IMG/VR virus record: IMGVR_UViG_3300048672_001068
Span: 1-44,264 of that record
Length of the DNA stretch: 44,264 bases
DNA from: a virus
Reading direction: 5' to 3' (one strand)
Part shown: positions 1,950 to 35,741 of the stretch, piece by piece
Layout of the letters: each line of letters starts with the position of its first letter
Numbering within the stretch: position 1 is the first letter of the stretch
Made by a program: the position numbers and the translations under genes
The notes under the pieces: generated by a model
The model's database searches: none
What the model saw: only the letters and a program-made list of their open reading frames with translations
What the model was told of the DNA's origin: nothing

Positions 1950-4337
1950 ATGCTCCCTTGCGACCTACCCCCCGATGTTCTGGCCAGCTTGTGGGCGCAT
2001 GTGCCTGCGGAGCAGCGGGCCAGCATTCGGGCGGCGGCACGCAAAGGGCTGGAAGCCCTCAAAACCCCCGAGCCCATCAGCCTGCCTGACTGGGCCAACA
2101 AGCATTTTTACCTGTCCGCCGAAAGCAGCCAGGCGCAAAAGCGGTGGGAGAGCTACCCGTACCAGGTGGGCATGCTGCACGCGATGGGCGATGACCACAT
2201 TGAAGAGGTCACCATCAAAAAAAGCGCCCGCGTGGGTTACACCAAGATGATTTTGGCCGCCATGGCCTACTTTGCGCAGCACAAACGGCGCAATCAGTGC
2301 ATATGGCAGCCCACCGATGCCGACAGCGACGAGTTCTGCAAGGCCGAAGTGGAGCCCATGCTGCGCGATGTGCGCGTGATGCAGACCGTGCTGCCCAGCT
2401 TCATGCGCAAAAGCAAGGCCAACACGCTGAACATGAAGAAGTTCCTGGGCAGCATCCTGTTCATGAAGGGTGGCACCAGCAGCGGCAACTACCGGCGCAT
2501 GACCTTGCAGGTGGCCATTGGCGATGAGTTCAGCGCGTTTGACCAGAAAATTGAAAAGTCGTCAGACCCTTGGACGCTGATGCACAAGCGGCTGGAGGGG
2601 GCCACCTACCCCAAGCTGATTTTGGGCAGCACACCACGCCTGAAAGGGTTGGATCACATCGAGCGGCGCGAGCAGGCCGCCACCGCCCGCATGCGCTACC
2701 ACCTTGCCTGCCCGCACTGTGGCGAAGACCACCCGCTGCTGCCTGGGCGGCTGGATGTGTCGCTCATCAACCAGGGCAAGCCCGTGCGCACCGGGTTTCA
2801 GTGGGATGCCGAAGACCCCGAGGGCAGCGTGCGCCACGTTTGCCCGCACTGCCTGCAAAGTATTGACCAGGCCACCTACCTGGAGCTGTGGCACCACGGC
2901 CACTGGGCCAGCGACTGCGGAAACTACCACCTGTACGCCGATGGAACCTGGACGGACGGCACCGGCTGCAAGCTGACGCACCCGCCGCGCCACGTTGCAT
3001 TCCATGTGTGGACGGCCTACAGCCCACAGACCACCTGGGCCGTGATCGTGCGCGAAATGCTGGACGCACTGCGGGCCAAACAGGCCGGTGATGCCGCCGC
3101 ACTGGAGGGGTTTACCAACGAAACCTTGGGCGAAACCTGGCAGGAAGAGGTAGAGGCCAACGACAGCCACGAGCTGCAAAAACGCGCCGAAGCCTACCCA
3201 CTGCGCCGCGTGCCCCCCGGTGGCCTGGAGCTGGTGGCCGGGGTTGACGTGCAAGACAAGTGGTGGGCTGTCACCGTGTACGCCATTGGCCGGGGTGAAG
3301 AGAGCTGGGTGATCGACTGGCAGGTGATTGAGGGCAACCTGAGCAAACAGACCGAGTGGGAAGAGCGGCTGTACCCCTACCTCTGCACCACCTTCTGGCA
3401 CTGGCACGGGGCACCCATGCGCATACGCGCCGTGGGTATTGACACGGGCGGCAACCACACCCACGACGTGTACACCTTCGCCCGCAACCACGCGCACGAA
3501 AAGTTCTTCGCCCTCAAAGGCGACAGCCAGCCACACAAGCCCATCAAGGGCCGAAGCAGCAGCCAGGACGTGAACTACCGTGGCCGCATTCTGAAAAACG
3601 GCGTGAAGCTGCACATGGTGGGCACCGACACGGCCAAAGACCTGATTTTTGGCCGCTTGAAGATTGAGCAGCCCGGCCCAGGCTACATGCACTTCAGCGA
3701 GTTTCTGCCTCTGGAGTTCTACACCGGCCTGACCAGCGAAGTGCGCCGCACCGTGCGCACCGCACGCGGCGATGTGAAGCACTGGGTCAAAACCGTGGCC
3801 CGCAACGAGCCGCTGGATACCACCGTGTACGCCATTTTTGCCAGCCACGCCCTGGGCCACCACACCTACACCCAGCACATGTGGGACAGGCTGGAACAGA
3901 GCCTGCTGCCCGACCTGTTCAGCCCCGCGCCACCCATGCCCGAGCAGCCCGCCGCCCAGCCAGTGGTCAACCAGCAGATGACAACTCAGCAAGCTGCCGT
4001 GGCGGCAGCGGTGACGGCCACCCCCACCCAGGGCCCAGCCCATGAACAAGCCATTCAGCAGCCTGAAAATGCATCAAAAAAAGAAGCTGAAAACACAATA
4101 CCAGCAAGCGCAGACGCGCAAAAACATGATGAAAATGAGCATGAAAATGCCCATGCACAACAGCGGCCACCACTGACCCAGCATGCCGCCAGTGCTGGCG
4201 AGCAGGCCCAGCCAAAACCAACCCCGCCAGCCACCCAGCCAGTGCGCATTGCCACCAAGCCGGTGGCACGCCGCCGCACGCCCGCGCCTGCCAGACCGTT
4301 TGCCCCCAGCGGCTGGCTGGAGCGGGGCTTTACCTGA
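1950..4337 (+). CDS. Terminase large subunit, lambda GpA type
   Basis: A 795-aa ATP-driven DNA packaging motor and nuclease. The Walker A-like motif KKSARVGYTK is at residues 90-99, very close to the lambda GpA version. The Walker B acidic pair is D192-E193 (VAIGDEFSAFD), and the coupling motif GSTPRLKGLDH is near 226-236. Two CPHC zinc-binding pairs follow, the first at 254-257. The nuclease half shows GVDVQDKWW and AVGIDTGGNH, the acidic strands of the RNase H-like fold. The last 140 residues or so are a low-complexity Ala/Gln/Pro/Lys tail beyond the usual family length. GpA-type enzymes normally cut at cos sites, so cohesive ends are expected. It starts 3 bases after the preceding stop. 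Confidence 0.95.
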   Translation: MLPCDLPPDVLASLWAHVPAEQRASIRAAARKGLEALKTPEPISLPDWANKHFYLSAESSQAQKRWESYPYQVGMLHAMGDDHIEEVTIKKSARVGYTKMILAAMAYFAQHKRRNQCIWQPTDADSDEFCKAEVEPMLRDVRVMQTVLPSFMRKSKANTLNMKKFLGSILFMKGGTSSGNYRRMTLQVAIGDEFSAFDQKIEKSSDPWTLMHKRLEGATYPKLILGSTPRLKGLDHIERREQAATARMRYHLACPHCGEDHPLLPGRLDVSLINQGKPVRTGFQWDAEDPEGSVRHVCPHCLQSIDQATYLELWHHGHWASDCGNYHLYADGTWTDGTGCKLTHPPRHVAFHVWTAYSPQTTWAVIVREMLDALRAKQAGDAAALEGFTNETLGETWQEEVEANDSHELQKRAEAYPLRRVPPGGLELVAGVDVQDKWWAVTVYAIGRGEESWVIDWQVIEGNLSKQTEWEERLYPYLCTTFWHWHGAPMRIRAVGIDTGGNHTHDVYTFARNHAHEKFFALKGDSQPHKPIKGRSSSQDVNYRGRILKNGVKLHMVGTDTAKDLIFGRLKIEQPGPGYMHFSEFLPLEFYTGLTSEVRRTVRTARGDVKHWVKTVARNEPLDTTVYAIFASHALGHHTYTQHMWDRLEQSLLPDLFSPAPPMPEQPAAQPVVNQQMTTQQAAVAAAVTATPTQGPAHEQAIQQPENASKKEAENTIPASADAQKHDENEHENAHAQQRPPLTQHAASAGEQAQPKPTPPATQPVRIATKPVARRRTPAPARPFAPSGWLERGFT

Positions 4338-31676: not shown

Positions 31677-32060
31677 TCAGGTGTTGGGCTTGCCATGGCC
31701 ATCCAGGAAGGACAGCTGGCTTTGGGGAACAATGGTCAGAGCACCGCCACGGCCAACGTACATGGGGGTTTCGCGGCTGGCCTCGATGGTTGTTTTGCCT
31801 TCGAGGGTCGGTTTGGTGAAACTGATGTCGTGCTCAATCTGCACCTGCGTCGTGCCCTTGATGGGCTTGATCTTGAGCTTGATGCTGATGGCACCTGGGC
31901 GCTGCAAATCAACCACCAGCGAGGATGTGGTGCTGAGCGCCTCGCTCAACATGACGGCGAATTGGCCGCCGTCCAGCTCGGTCAGAAACTGGTCAACCTT
32001 GGTCACGGCCTTGTTGACATGGCTGGTTGGGTTGGATGCAGTGGTAGTGGGTGTGCTCAT
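31677..32060 (-). CDS. Hypothetical early phage protein (127 aa)
   Basis: AAGGAGG precedes the ATG. The protein has AVTKVDQFLTELDGGQFAVM, then a beta-rich part (AISIKLKIKPIKG, VQIEHDISFTKPT) and TPMYVGRGGALTI. It is a typical partner gene just upstream of DUF2303 in such phages. Function unknown. Confidence 0.75.
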   Translation of the reverse strand: MSTPTTTASNPTSHVNKAVTKVDQFLTELDGGQFAVMLSEALSTTSSLVVDLQRPGAISIKLKIKPIKGTTQVQIEHDISFTKPTLEGKTTIEASRETPMYVGRGGALTIVPQSQLSFLDGHGKPNT

Positions 32061-32145
32061 TGAGGCCTCCTTGGCGTGAGCGGTTGAAAAAACTGGGTTG
32101 AAAAATCGCGGGGCTTGCTGGGGTGCTGTCTGCTGGCCGGTGCCG

Positions 32146-32589
32146 TCAGCGGCTGAAAAATCCGGCCCAAAATGCCGGCACAGTGCTCACAAGCAGCCAG
32201 GCAACAACCCAGGCCAGCGCGGTGGCCGCCACGGCAAGCCAGCCGGGATTGACCCGGGCCAGCCATTGGCTTCGGCGGCTGTAGTTGGCGGTGTGTGGCC
32301 GGATGGGTGGCAGGCCTTCTTTCTTGACCTGCTCTGCTGCGTTGGCCATGGACAGCTGAAAAGTGAGCTGTGCGACTTGTTGCTGCAGGGCGGCGTAGGC
32401 TGATTCGTGCTTCTGGATGCGGTCGGCCAGCTGCTTGGAGTGCGGGCCGGTCACGGCCACGGTGTGGCCGCTTGTGCTGAATGTGGTGTGGCTCATGCAG
32501 GTTGCCTGTGGGCTGGTGGTTATGGGGGTGGGGGTTGATCTGGCAGGGCAGTCGCGGCCCTGGTGGCAGCCGTAATCGCAGCAGTTCAT
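32146..32589 (-). CDS. Cys-rich peptide joined to a membrane protein (147 aa)
   Basis: ATG 32589 overlaps the upstream stop (ATGA). The first residues MNCCDYGCHQGRDCPARS form a Cys-rich motif that is usually a stand-alone peptide of about 30 residues in related phages. Here the frame continues without a stop into a second unit beginning MSHTTFSTSGHTVAV (ATG 32496), with a coiled-coil-like QLADRIQKHESAYAALQQQV and a C-terminal membrane segment (GWLAVAATALAWVVAWLL). Either one fused protein or two products through internal initiation. Function unknown. Confidence 0.6.
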   Translation of the reverse strand: MNCCDYGCHQGRDCPARSTPTPITTSPQATCMSHTTFSTSGHTVAVTGPHSKQLADRIQKHESAYAALQQQVAQLTFQLSMANAAEQVKKEGLPPIRPHTANYSRRSQWLARVNPGWLAVAATALAWVVAWLLVSTVPAFWAGFFSR

Positions 32590-32942
32590 TGGCGCTGGGC
32601 CCCCCGGCTGGCTTGCTGCACGGCGGCCACGGCTTGCACGGCGGTATCGAGGGCGGCGCGGGTGCCTGCGCATACAAGCTCGCTGCTGGTGTGCCAGTAG
32701 TGGGTAGCTTCTGGGCTGGGGCTATCGCGGCACACCTCGGCAGCAATTTGATCGACGTGGGTAGCGTGCTGGCGGGCCTTGCGCTGGGCGGCACGTTTTT
32801 CAGCCAGAGTTTTGGCTTGCTCTTCGGCCTGGGCATCCAGCACAGCAGTTCCGCAGTACAGCGCCAGAAGCATGAACAAGCACATGATGATCCAGGGCCA
32901 TGGCGATGTGGAAGGTGGGCGGGTGTCGTACACGTAGTTCAT
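32586..32942 (-). CDS. Hypothetical membrane protein (118 aa)
   Basis: ATG 32942 overlaps the upstream stop (ATGA). One membrane segment near residues 17-33 (WPWIIMCLFMLLALYCG) is followed by a charged helix (EEQAKTLAEKRAAQRKARQ) and a C-terminal helical part with two cysteines (EVCRDS, ELVCAG), which may be disulphide-paired if periplasmic. Function unknown. Confidence 0.65.
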   Translation of the reverse strand: MNYVYDTRPPSTSPWPWIIMCLFMLLALYCGTAVLDAQAEEQAKTLAEKRAAQRKARQHATHVDQIAAEVCRDSPSPEATHYWHTSSELVCAGTRAALDTAVQAVAAVQQASRGAQRQ

Positions 32943-33463
32943 GGGGCATCTCCTGTGGTGCTGGTTGGCTGGTAGTGGTTGTGGTGGCTGGCTGCCGTGG
33001 CTGAAACGTGGCTGGCAATGGCTGCGCACATGCGCGGGTAGTCCGCTGCCGAATACAGGCGGGCTGATTTGTTGCGGTGCTCTGGCTCAAAGCCCAGGCT
33101 CAGTACAAATGCCGCGCTGACCATGAAGCCCAGCCGTGCGCTGATCTGGCCCAGGCTCAGCAGCTCGCCCGGTTTGGCGTGGCTGGCTGGTGTGTGGCCG
33201 TGGTGTGCCAGGTGTGCGGGCGGTGGCGGGGCTGGCGTGGGTGCCTCGCTGGGCATAAGCAGCGGGGCGGCTTGTTGCGCGGCCCGCTGGTGGTGGCGCT
33301 GCATGGCCTTGTCAAAAGCCTCGCTGGCCTGAAAAAACCGGGTGCCCAGGTCCAGCATGCTTTGAATCAGCTCGGCGGGGCTGGCGGTGGCGAAGTGGGC
33401 GGCCAGCTCGTCGGCGGCTGCTGATTCGGCGGTGGCCTGGGTGGTGGCGGCTTCGGTGCTCAT
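32939..33463 (-). CDS. Hypothetical phage protein (174 aa)
   Basis: ATG 33463 overlaps the upstream stop (ATGA). After an Ala/Thr-rich start comes a helical AELIQSMLDLGTRFFQASEA, then a Pro/Ala/His linker. The C-terminal domain LLSLGQISARLGFMVSAAFV with YSAADYPRMCAAIASHV resembles a small winged-helix or phage regulatory domain. Function unknown. Confidence 0.65.
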   Translation of the reverse strand: MSTEAATTQATAESAAADELAAHFATASPAELIQSMLDLGTRFFQASEAFDKAMQRHHQRAAQQAAPLLMPSEAPTPAPPPPAHLAHHGHTPASHAKPGELLSLGQISARLGFMVSAAFVLSLGFEPEHRNKSARLYSAADYPRMCAAIASHVSATAASHHNHYQPTSTTGDAP

Positions 33464-33801
33464 GCTGCCGCCTGCGCAGGCATTGCAAACGCTTTGCTGC
33501 CGTGAAATGCGTACAGGAGGCCGCCATTGCGTTGACACGCTTCGGCTGCTTTCTTGAGGTCGTCGCGAATATGGTGCTGTGCAGAGTAGAGCGCGTAGTA
33601 AGTCGCTTCCTCGTAAATTTTTTGGCTCAGTCGCTCAATTGCCTGAAGCTCGGTGTCCTTGTTGAGCGTGTGTGCTGCCCATGAGTGGGCAATGCTTATT
33701 TGATCCATCATCCCGTAGGTTTGGATTATTTTTGGCAGGGCCGGTGCGCGTGGCTTGCGTGTCTGCCCGGTGCTGCGGGCGGAGGTGTTGGGGGTTGGCA
33801 T
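33460..33801 (-). CDS. Hypothetical phage protein (113 aa)
   Basis: GGAGAAAG precedes ATG 33801. The N-terminus is basic (TSARSTGQTRKPRAPALPK); the rest is helical (LQAIERLSQKIYEEATYYAL). The start lies 28 bases after the T-run of T3, so this five-gene block (33801 to 32146) has no clear promoter of its own. Function unknown. Confidence 0.68.
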   Translation of the reverse strand: MPTPNTSARSTGQTRKPRAPALPKIIQTYGMMDQISIAHSWAAHTLNKDTELQAIERLSQKIYEEATYYALYSAQHHIRDDLKKAAEACQRNGGLLYAFHGSKAFAMPAQAAA

Positions 33802-33829
33802 GGGGCTTTCTCCGGGTGGTGTTTGACCG

Positions 33830-33866
33830 AAAAAAAGCCCACCCAGGTGTGCGCCTGGGCGGGCTG
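33830..33866 (-). terminator. Intrinsic terminator T3, end of the structured RNA
   Basis: Minus strand GCCCGCCCAGG / CCTGGGTGGGC (11 bp with one G-U) around CGCACA, followed by seven T. This is the strongest terminator of the set and closes the unit that begins at the 34.47-kb promoter. Confidence 0.9.
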
Positions 33867-34461
33867 TGAACCCGGCGCATGGGCCGGGCAGGGGGTTTGT
33901 GAAATGAGATGCTGGGTCCGCACGCTGCGGAATTCCAATCGTTGATGCGTGTCCTCGATGCTCTGTACAACCATCAGGGCAGGGGGCCGGGCTTGATTCC
34001 GGCTGTTCGTCCCTTCTGTCGGGTCTTTCGGCATGCCATTGGTCTGCTGGCTGCCGACTGCTGAGGGCTGACCGCCCGCACTTCCTTCAGTGCTGCCCCT
34101 GCCCTGATGGCCCCCGGCTTGTCGCCGGGGCCGTGCCGGGCTTTGACCGGCATCCGGCGGCATGTTGATCACGTTGCCGCTGCGCTGGTGCCCTGTCTCA
34201 GGGCGTGCGTCAATTACCCGCGATTGACCGCTTCGCGTCTGCCGGTGTGTGTGTCGGCAAATCGCACCGGCTTTGCTCCGGGCCTGGTGGCCCTGCAAAG
34301 TGGTGTTTTTCCCGTCTTCTGGCTGCGCATGTGCTGCGCGGCATCAGCCGCCGGGTAGGAGCTGGTCTTCTGGTGCTGACTTGGGTATCCGTGGGTTGTG
34401 AAAGGCCAGCAGGCTGCGGCAAGTCGATGCTGGCCACCCGATGCCGCTTTGTTTGCGGCAT
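33830..34461 (-). ncRNA. Large ornate structured RNA (about 630 nt), possibly GOLLD/ROOL class
   Basis: No frame here looks like a protein, yet the segment is packed with perfect stems. Examples are ATGCCGC/GCGGCAT (34441-34461), GGCCAGCA/TGCTGGCC (34404-34435), GCTGCGCA-type 8-bp stem (34322-34342), and CTTTGC/GCAAAG enclosing GGGCC/GGCCC (34271-34300). Others are GTCAAT/ATTGAC (34209-34228), GCCCTG/CAGGGC (34190-34204), TGCCGG/CCGGCA (34134-34152), CCCCGGC/GCCGGGG (34112-34130), GCCGG/CCGGC (33986-34003), CCGCA/TGCGG (33918-33930) and CCCGGC/GCCGGG (33871-33888). A 15-bp perfect long-range pairing joins 33971-33985 with 34096-34110. It has its own promoter and terminator. Class membership is inference from size, density and phage location. 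Confidence 0.72.
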
Positions 34462-34467
34462 GGGTGC

Positions 34468-34497
34468 ATTATTGCCCAATGGGCATGCAAAAGGCAA
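34468..34497 (-). promoter_or_regulatory. Promoter of the structured RNA with repressor-type operator
   Basis: On the minus strand: -35 TTGCCT (34497-34492), 18-base spacer, -10 AATAAT (34473-34468). CCCATTGGG lies in the spacer directly before the -10. The Cro promoter has the same design. Predicted start is near 34461, at the first hairpin. Confidence 0.72.
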
Positions 34498-34498
34498 G

Positions 34499-34517
34499 AC
34501 CCAAAGGGTAATTATTT
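34499..34517. promoter_or_regulatory. Operator-like palindrome upstream of the RNA promoter
   Basis: GACCCAAAGGGTAATTATT matches GACCCATTGGGTAATAATT at 35418-35436 in 16 of 19 bases. It abuts the -35 of the RNA promoter and may be a second operator. Confidence 0.6.
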
Positions 34518-34528
34518 TTAAAAAGGCG

Positions 34529-34554
34529 AAAAAAAACCGCCACGGTGGGCGGTT
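34529..34554 (-). terminator. Intrinsic terminator T4
   Basis: Minus strand AACCGCC / GGCGGTT around a short loop, followed by TTTTTTTT. It ends the zinc-ribbon membrane gene and insulates the structured RNA promoter. Confidence 0.85.
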
Positions 34555-34581
34555 GGTTGGTTGGGTGATGGGGTTGGCTGG

Positions 34582-34866
34582 TCAGTTGACCCCAAGTGCA
34601 CTGCCGCAGTGCTTGCACTTGCTGGCACTGTTCAGCACGTACTCGCGGCACTCGGGGCAGCGGGTGTGGGTTTTGGCGTTGACCTTGATGGTGATGCTGT
34701 CCAGGTCATCAAGTGACAGGATGAAGGCGAAGGCCACCACGGGGGTGAACAGGATGGAAATGGCAAACCAGATAAAGCCGTTGCGGCCTCGCCTGGTGGC
34801 CAGAAATGAAGCCGCAATGCTGAGCGCAAAGTAGCCGATGATCGATTCAAACAACAGAAATTGCAC
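34582..34866 (-). CDS. Membrane protein with C-terminal zinc ribbon (94 aa)
   Basis: GTG 34866 has AGGAGGA just upstream. Two membrane segments (IIGYFALSIAASFLA, GFIWFAISILFTPVVAFAFI) are followed by a cytoplasmic zinc ribbon (CPECREYV and CKHCGSA). It lies directly downstream of the repressor in the same direction, the place where lambda-type phages put lysogeny-expressed genes, so exclusion of other phages is possible. That role is inference. Confidence 0.75.
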   Translation of the reverse strand: MQFLLFESIIGYFALSIAASFLATRRGRNGFIWFAISILFTPVVAFAFILSLDDLDSITIKVNAKTHTRCPECREYVLNSASKCKHCGSALGVN

Positions 34867-34957: not shown

Positions 34958-35368
34958 TCAGTGCTGGGGCTGGCCGGTGGTTCCGTTGGCTTGGGCTGGT
35001 TGCGCAAGCGCATCTAGCAAGCGCACTGCGGTAGCCCACTGGTCAGGGGGTAATGCCTCCATCAGCTGCATGGCCCTGGTGCGGGGGTCATCTTCGCCGT
35101 GCAGCTCGGCGTAGGTCAGTGGGGTGTCCATCCAGCCGTTTGGCAGGCTGAGTGCATGCTCAATTTCGCGGGCCATTGGTGACCCCATCAAAAAAGTTTT
35201 CCCCTCGCGGTCTGTCCGTGCGTTTTGATTTTTGATGCGGCTCAGGCGCGAGTCTGTGCGCGGGTATCCGATTGCTTCGTTCAGCTCAGCAAAAGACCCG
35301 TATTTTTTCAGCAGCAGCTCCAGCTTTTCGCGGCGTGTTTCGTCGATTGTTTTCACCCCAAGAATCAT
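34958..35368 (-). CDS. Phage repressor (CI-type HTH protein)
   Basis: A 136-aa DNA-binding protein. KTIDETRREKLELLLKKYGS, FAELNEAIGYPRTDSRLSRI and the wing-like KNQNARTDREGKTFLMGS make up a helix-turn-helix domain typical of phage repressors. The C-terminal part is helical (EDDPRTRAMQLMEALPPDQW) and lacks a LexA-like Ser/Lys protease domain, so RecA-driven self-cleavage is not expected. I place the start at ATG 35368, below the operators. A longer frame to 35455 would run through the Cro promoter. It is divergent from cro. Confidence 0.78.
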   Translation of the reverse strand: MILGVKTIDETRREKLELLLKKYGSFAELNEAIGYPRTDSRLSRIKNQNARTDREGKTFLMGSPMAREIEHALSLPNGWMDTPLTYAELHGEDDPRTRAMQLMEALPPDQWATAVRLLDALAQPAQANGTTGQPQH

Positions 35369-35396
35369 GTCTGGAGGCTGAAAAAAGCAAAATTTT

Positions 35397-35434
35397 CCAT
35401 TGGGTTTGTCTTTGCCGACCCATTGGGTAATAAT
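35397..35434 (+). promoter_or_regulatory. Cro (PR-type) promoter with tandem operators
   Basis: -35 TTGTCT (35406-35411), 17-base spacer, -10 AATAAT (35429-35434). CCATTGGG occurs at 35397-35404 and CCCATTGGG at 35419-35427, 23 bases apart, so on the same DNA face at about two turns. The predicted +1 is near 35441, one base before the cro ATG. Confidence 0.75.
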
Positions 35435-35441
35435 TGGAGGC

Positions 35442-35741
35442 ATGATCAAACTCAAGTTATGGCTGAAGGGTGAACGGGGCAGGGCAGCGGCATTGGCCGA
35501 GCGCCTTGATGTTCATCCGCCGTTCATCACAAAAATTGCCAACGGCAAAAAGCCCATCCCCGTTGGAAAGATGTACCAGATCGAGTGCTTCACAGGTGGC
35601 GCAGTCACCCGCCGTGACATGCACCCCGAGTCCCCCGAGCTGATTTGGCCCGATCTCGCGGTGCGTGAATTGAATGCACAAAATCTGCCTTCTGCGCTTG
35701 CCGCAAAAGCGCATGATGCTACCAAAACTGAGGCGGCCTGA
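35442..35741 (+). CDS. cro: Cro-like repressor
   Basis: A 99-aa HTH protein: LKGERGRAAALAERLDVHPP then FITKIANGKKPIPVGKMYQI, the YdaS/Cro pattern in which the GKKPIP loop precedes the last helix. It is divergent from the CI-type repressor and heads the rightward early operon. GGAGG is only one base from the ATG, too close to act as a ribosome site. With +1 near 35441 the mRNA may be leaderless. Its last codons contain copy d of the 19-bp dyad. Confidence 0.82.
   Translation: MIKLKLWLKGERGRAAALAERLDVHPPFITKIANGKKPIPVGKMYQIECFTGGAVTRRDMHPESPELIWPDLAVRELNAQNLPSALAAKAHDATKTEAA
35694..35712. promoter_or_regulatory. 19-bp dyad, copy d
   Basis: GCGCTT - GCCGCAA - AAGCGC inside the end of cro, 30 bases upstream of the next ATG. 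It matches the minus-strand copy at 30596 in 17 of 19 bases. Confidence 0.6.

Follow-up and report, generated by a model that had tools for sequence, protein, structure and literature searches.

A covarying core defines an undescribed class of structured phage RNA and marks a probable early RNA gene in a temperate phage

What occupies the roughly 620 nucleotides that lie between two minus-strand genes downstream of the repressor of a phage? The window analyzed here is a viral record of 44,264 bases that encodes an N15/lambda-like terminase, and the phage is probably temperate, of the N15/lambda type, and from Burkholderiales. Along its minus strand the order is the phage repressor (phrog_12107, 34958–35455, E 1.5e-12), a zinc-ribbon-like gene (34582–34866), a terminator at 34554–34535 that belongs to the upstream gene, a promoter, the RNA stretch of ~620 nt, a second terminator, and the next gene of the early operon (33460–33801, 113 aa, without a family match). 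A Cro/YdaS-like regulator at 35400–35741 on the plus strand diverges from the repressor. Further along the minus strand, a 259-aa open frame at 32057–32836 scores poorly for codon usage, matches no family, and may be no gene.

In the RNA stretch itself, codon scores are near zero in every frame of 33780–34620, while most neighboring genes score 0.2–0.4, and the longest open frame of the region has no relatives that we could find; on these observations we reject a protein gene running through it. The initial annotation had seen no plausible gene here and had named a protein frame conserved in homologs as one observation that would speak against an RNA. The codon scores bear out the former, and the latter does not occur, as no frame is open in more than 21 of the 60 cores of the family described below and open lengths are spread over all three frames. 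Folding stability relative to shuffled sequences is high on both strands, with z = −8.2 on the minus strand and −6.4 on the plus strand, and when 60 control windows from this phage are scored with a common standard deviation, none is as stable as the minus-strand RNA, the runner-up being a window that overlaps the RNA. No tRNA was found in the window. Complementarity between the RNA and the phage's own genes is limited to short matches of chance length, by which we reject an antisense role against those genes and which removes one simple target in trans.

The promoter, the terminator, the coding score, and the minus-strand fold all point to a predicted non-coding transcription unit at 33829–34466 on the minus strand, some 620–635 nt long, with a predicted start at about 34461–34466 and a U-tract end at 33829. 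Its sigma70-like promoter, TTGCCT-18-AATAAT (34468–34497, minus strand), is predicted from sequence and from the same promoter in relatives to be a pL-like leftward early promoter; a promoter scan found 1 where 0.2 would be expected. At the other end, an intrinsic terminator with a 12-bp stem and a U-tract (33865–33829) stops about 28 bp ahead of the start codon of the next gene. The initial annotation had credited the RNA with a promoter and terminator of its own without stating a strand; both are found, and both are on the minus strand.

Direct reading of the sequence reveals two operator-like repeats overlapping this promoter on the minus strand (34475–34508), CCCTTTGGG at 34508–34500 and CCCATTGGG at 34483–34475, and CCCATTGGG recurs at the cro-side promoter near 35420–35430. 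The same type of promoter occupies the same place in relatives found with either the repressor (L026–L029, L030–L039, and L045) or the zinc-ribbon protein (L003–L007) as bait; together with its leader it lies downstream of the repressor gene in all of the former and in L003–L006. Every one of these relatives has a pair of similar operator-like repeats, and the two repeats vary in concert between phages. This is strong reason to infer that the early promoter is under repressor control. Since the repeats match those at the cro promoter, the RNA should be silent in lysogens and turned on at once upon induction.

The predicted transcript opens with a leader hairpin, CACCC ATGCCGC..GCGGCAT C GGGTG, read directly at 34435–34466 on the minus strand, which resembles the CACTCC CCCGCC..GGCGG GGAGTG hairpin of the relatives with compensatory changes. 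In most relatives this 5' hairpin has two tiers and its 3' arm contains the ribosome binding site of the first gene, and in most close relatives the pL leader runs directly into that gene without the core. In the window the leader hairpin is kept, the first gene is absent, and the RNA stands in its place, a comparison that argues strongly for the RNA having replaced the gene that would otherwise come first after the leftward early promoter. We consider it quite probable that the RNA of the window stands alone and is expressed early under repressor control. As a separate matter, in the pL leaders of L028, L029, L033, L035, L036, L038, L039, and L045 the outer arm pairs CACTCC with the ribosome binding site GGAGTG and the inner stem carries compensatory changes; translational control of the first gene by the two-tier hairpin of those relatives is possible. 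In two related prophages, L031 (4005–4357, 353 nt) and L032 (9322–9500, ~180 nt), what comes after this early promoter is a different RNA that also looks non-coding, and the core is absent from both of these leaders. The known RNAs RT-15, int-alpA, and Burkholderiales-2 were also seen in related phages, at L034 14402–14605 and L045 11289–11492, at L031 1373–1441, and at L142 7569–7642 and L156 3574–3647.

Is this RNA peculiar to one phage? A blastn search of the region against phages and plasmids gave no match, and the neighboring proteins, used as bait, yielded the comparison of pL leaders without finding the core. When 401 related bacterial genomes were scanned with BLAST, one match of 40 nt came up, and near it lies the partner arm of a 15-bp helix of the window, with compensatory changes. 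The pattern GGAATCAAGCCNGN{5,25}TGATGG, taken from this match, identified 48 viral stretches, about half of which have the exact spacing of the window and a complementary arm upstream, and a second pattern scan brought in more loci; such patterns favor members near the consensus. In all, the core is present in 60 distinct loci from phage contigs and Pseudomonadota genomes.

In the window the conserved core of ~145 nt lies at 33971–34114 on the minus strand, as does each of its elements, and is matched at 100.9 bits by model R1 and at 87.2 bits (E 9.1e-24) by model R2, which was built from 27 sequences with the window left out. Its outer helix, P1, is a covarying 15-bp helix between a 5' arm, CCATCAGGGCAGGGG (34096–34110), and a 3' arm, CCCCTGCCCTGATGG (33971–33985). 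This is the long-range pairing that the initial annotation had pointed out; it is exact, and it is conserved by covariation in other loci. One base before P1 stands P0, CCCCGGC-GACAA-GCCGGGG (34112–34130), with a 7-bp stem, and a stem of at least 5 bp abuts P1 in 52 of 58 loci compared with 25% in shuffles. Within P1, the P2 hairpin GCACT-GAAGGA-AGTGC (34078–34093) has a nearly invariant loop, GAAGGA or GATGGA, and all 5 of its pairs covary in alignment A3. It is followed by a variable region, P3 (34005–34077), which holds tRNA-like sequence in L085 and L151 and none in the window, and by the P4 hairpin, GCCGG-AATCAAGC-CCGGC (33986–34003), with the loop WATCAAGY and a covarying stem that reads GCTGG..CCAGC or GCAGG..CCTGC in divergent members. 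The window forms all 25 core pairs, with compensatory changes in P1 and P2. Two core-like domains occur in tandem in L158 (10898–11041 and 11224–11359) and in L135 (13–172 and 301–432). For the 5' ~340 nt of the window transcript, the searches found homology at the promoter and the first hairpin and nowhere else, so conservation is proven for the core only.

The pairing holds through several alignments. Among the first 19 sequences, 99.4% of cells are paired and 10 pairs have changed on both sides, and RNAalifold, run unaided on a plain MAFFT alignment of these sequences, predicts the same 25 pairs. When the 27 sequences without the window are aligned with MAFFT, 99.3% of cells are paired and 16 pairs have changes on both sides. 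An alignment of 66 rows (60 distinct), which was fitted to the covariance model, has 99.0% of cells paired, with both-side changes at 20 of the 25 pairs and in 205 cells; its covariation score of 0.42 compares with 0.12 after shuffling and no more than 0.05 for slid controls. One-sided changes in P1 are almost all from C-G to U-G, which keep the pairing only in the RNA of this strand. How the loci were collected bears on these numbers. The 5' arm of P1 was positioned by its distance from P2, independently of pairing, so the covariation of P1 does not follow from the method. The search patterns dictated the 3' hexamer TGATGG, which left that end of P1 little room for variation in these loci, and the evidence there is weaker. 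For P2, the best stem enclosing a GA[A/T]GG[A/G] loop was chosen, which makes its level of pairing partly a product of selection. The covariation across homologs that the initial annotation had asked for is in any case present in P1, P2, and P4, and the core class is almost certainly real.

The searches covered the available collections, with genome-wide model searches within one phylum, Pseudomonadota. They found the core in 10 of the 401 genomes from a single family (E up to 0.01), in 7 of 399 across the order (E up to 1e-5), and in 4 of 399 across the phylum, and all 20 phage records that were searched again carry it, mostly in a single copy. Named phages are among the carriers, including Acidovorax phage AP1 (88 bits) and Alcaligenes phage QDWS595 (75 bits), and Bordetella phage PHB04 has a partial core without P2 (40 bits). 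The genes near cores vary and include Rz, terminase, a DNA methyltransferase, ParB, a Cas4 exonuclease/helicase, NinG, portal, and tail genes. A strict terminator lies within 450 nt of the core in 12 of 60 loci compared with 0.75% in shuffles, and the enrichment of upstream promoters is modest (18 of 56 at a score of 9 or more, compared with 16% in shuffles); longer transcripts may therefore be the source from which other members are processed.

A further feature of these loci is their link to tRNAs. A tRNA lies within 1 kb of 15 of the 60 cores, always on the same strand. The T-arm motif GGTTCRANTCC is found 30 times inside 59 cores or no more than 700 nt from them, compared with 4 times in the rest of these loci (~400 kb) on that strand. 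Permuted tmRNAs (RF04321) adjoin the core in L155 (2500–2816, minus strand, 106 bits) and in L173 of Bordetella phage PHB04 (1496–1737, plus strand, 104 bits), and in both a similar GATGGT/ACCATC helix closes the tmRNA. The core has no match to tRNA or tmRNA, and the window contains neither of them. Many loci contain a downstream tRNA-like module, GGTGAATGCGCAGGCTGATGCGC...GCCGGAGATCAGCACCGGCCACC, whose closing helix covaries (TGATGGTG/CACCATCA, TGAGGGTG/CACCCTCA, TTGTGGTG/CACCACAA). When member L107 was used as the query, 85 phage records matched, and among those listed most did so through this module, which also lies in enterobacterial phages within stretches that are unannotated or called “hypothetical protein.” One such phage is HK620, where the module (L172 1801–1970) lies between pR'/qut and the terminator tQ. 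The 431-base HK620 leader stretch, for its part, has matches in 156 of 5426 Escherichia coli genomes, 84 of them over at least 80% of its length.

Because the module takes its first strand from the 3' arm of P1, the two are in competition. An exact third strand is present downstream in 29 of 60 loci where 2.6 would be expected, all three strands have changed together in L119, and in L144 the Rfam tRNA match at 3017–3122 begins inside the P1 3' arm. In these other members P1 would exchange strands with the downstream module, and it may therefore be a latch that governs the folding, maturation, or presentation of the module. Our tentative proposal, doubtful as it is, would have UGAUGG pair either with the 5' arm of the core or with the far end of a tRNA, tRNA-like, or permuted tmRNA module, switching between a closed core and a displayed domain, possibly for the translation machinery or for decoying tRNA-targeting defenses in lytic growth. 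The full third strand CCATCA is absent downstream in the window, which has only CATCA at 33947–33943, and without a tRNA module the latch idea does not apply directly to the window member.

Could the core belong to a large phage RNA that is already known? The initial annotation had left the choice between a divergent GOLLD and a new class, and the likeness of setting that it drew on, to GOLLD and ROOL alike, is real: phage genomes, tRNAs nearby or fused, and a conserved part with variable flanks. GOLLD (RF02032) is likewise large and borne by phages and prophages, it rises during phage lysis, and its linkers sometimes contain tRNAs (PMC12286853); the window RNA, correspondingly, stands behind an early, operator-bearing promoter. 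ROOL is a large phage RNA of about 600 nt near tRNA islands with no known protein partner (PMC12286853). A search of the window against Rfam 15 (4227 families, at gathering thresholds and at E up to 5) returned only terminator look-alikes and two matches at chance level, and no family in that release matches the core. The GOLLD, ROOL, HEARO, and OLE models, which the initial annotation had suggested trying, are all without a match in the window at E up to 5, by which HEARO and OLE are rejected. Neither GOLLD nor ROOL has a match in 26 further loci at the gathering score or, at E up to 0.01, in ten loci of named phages, and 10 core-bearing contigs gave no hit when searched directly with RF02032. 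By sequence and structure models the helices and loops of GOLLD differ from those of the core, and the window member is ~620 nt long. We therefore consider membership in GOLLD or ROOL very improbable; the half of the earlier suggestion that survives is the new class. A type III toxin-antitoxin RNA was rejected as well, there being no tandem repeats and no family match for the next gene. No description of the core RNA was found in the openly accessible literature. To judge by that literature the class is undescribed, of the same general kind as GOLLD and ROOL but neither of them.

Two further explanations concern what the RNA does. It might be a cis-acting leader that controls transcription of the early operon by PUT-like antitermination or by attenuation, as its place between a pL-like promoter and a terminator so close to the first gene would suit. 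The lambdoid late leader (pR'-tR') of HK620 resembles it in being non-coding and flanked by a phage promoter and a nearby terminator, and it shares the tRNA-like module with several family members, but it has no match to the core model. The core moves between unrelated positions, beside tRNAs and ahead of many different genes, which favors action in trans over a leader in cis; moreover, most close relatives reach their first gene from the same promoter without any core. Known PUT elements are far shorter than this RNA, and a cis-acting role is on balance unlikely. Alternatively, the core could have no independent function and serve as a linker or processing element in phage tRNA and tmRNA arrays, P1 folding the spacers so that tRNA ends are cut correctly. 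The strong same-strand linkage to tRNAs speaks for this, as does the coincidence of P1 arms with the acceptor strands of tRNA-like modules (L144), but the window and most members carry a full core with no recognized tRNA within 1 kb, and spacing alone leaves the GAAGGA and WAUCAAGY loops unexplained; we rate this somewhat below even the cis-acting leader. The reading we favor, with moderate confidence, is that this locus encodes a free-standing non-coding RNA of an undescribed phage RNA class, expressed early and acting in trans in lytic growth. The class is defined by the ~145-nt core, with covarying P1, P2, and P4, loops of the GAAGGA type and WAUCAAGY, and P0 ahead of them; the RNA, alone or in a complex, would act as a structured RNA.

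To our knowledge, very few classes of large structured phage RNA have been recognized, and the function of GOLLD and ROOL is unexplained. If our reading is correct, the core would add another such class, one that is present in sequenced, named phages and that combines a compact core and strong covariation with a link to tRNAs and tmRNAs. The repressor-type promoter would give its expression a testable timing, and the three-strand arrangement would give a concrete switch to test.
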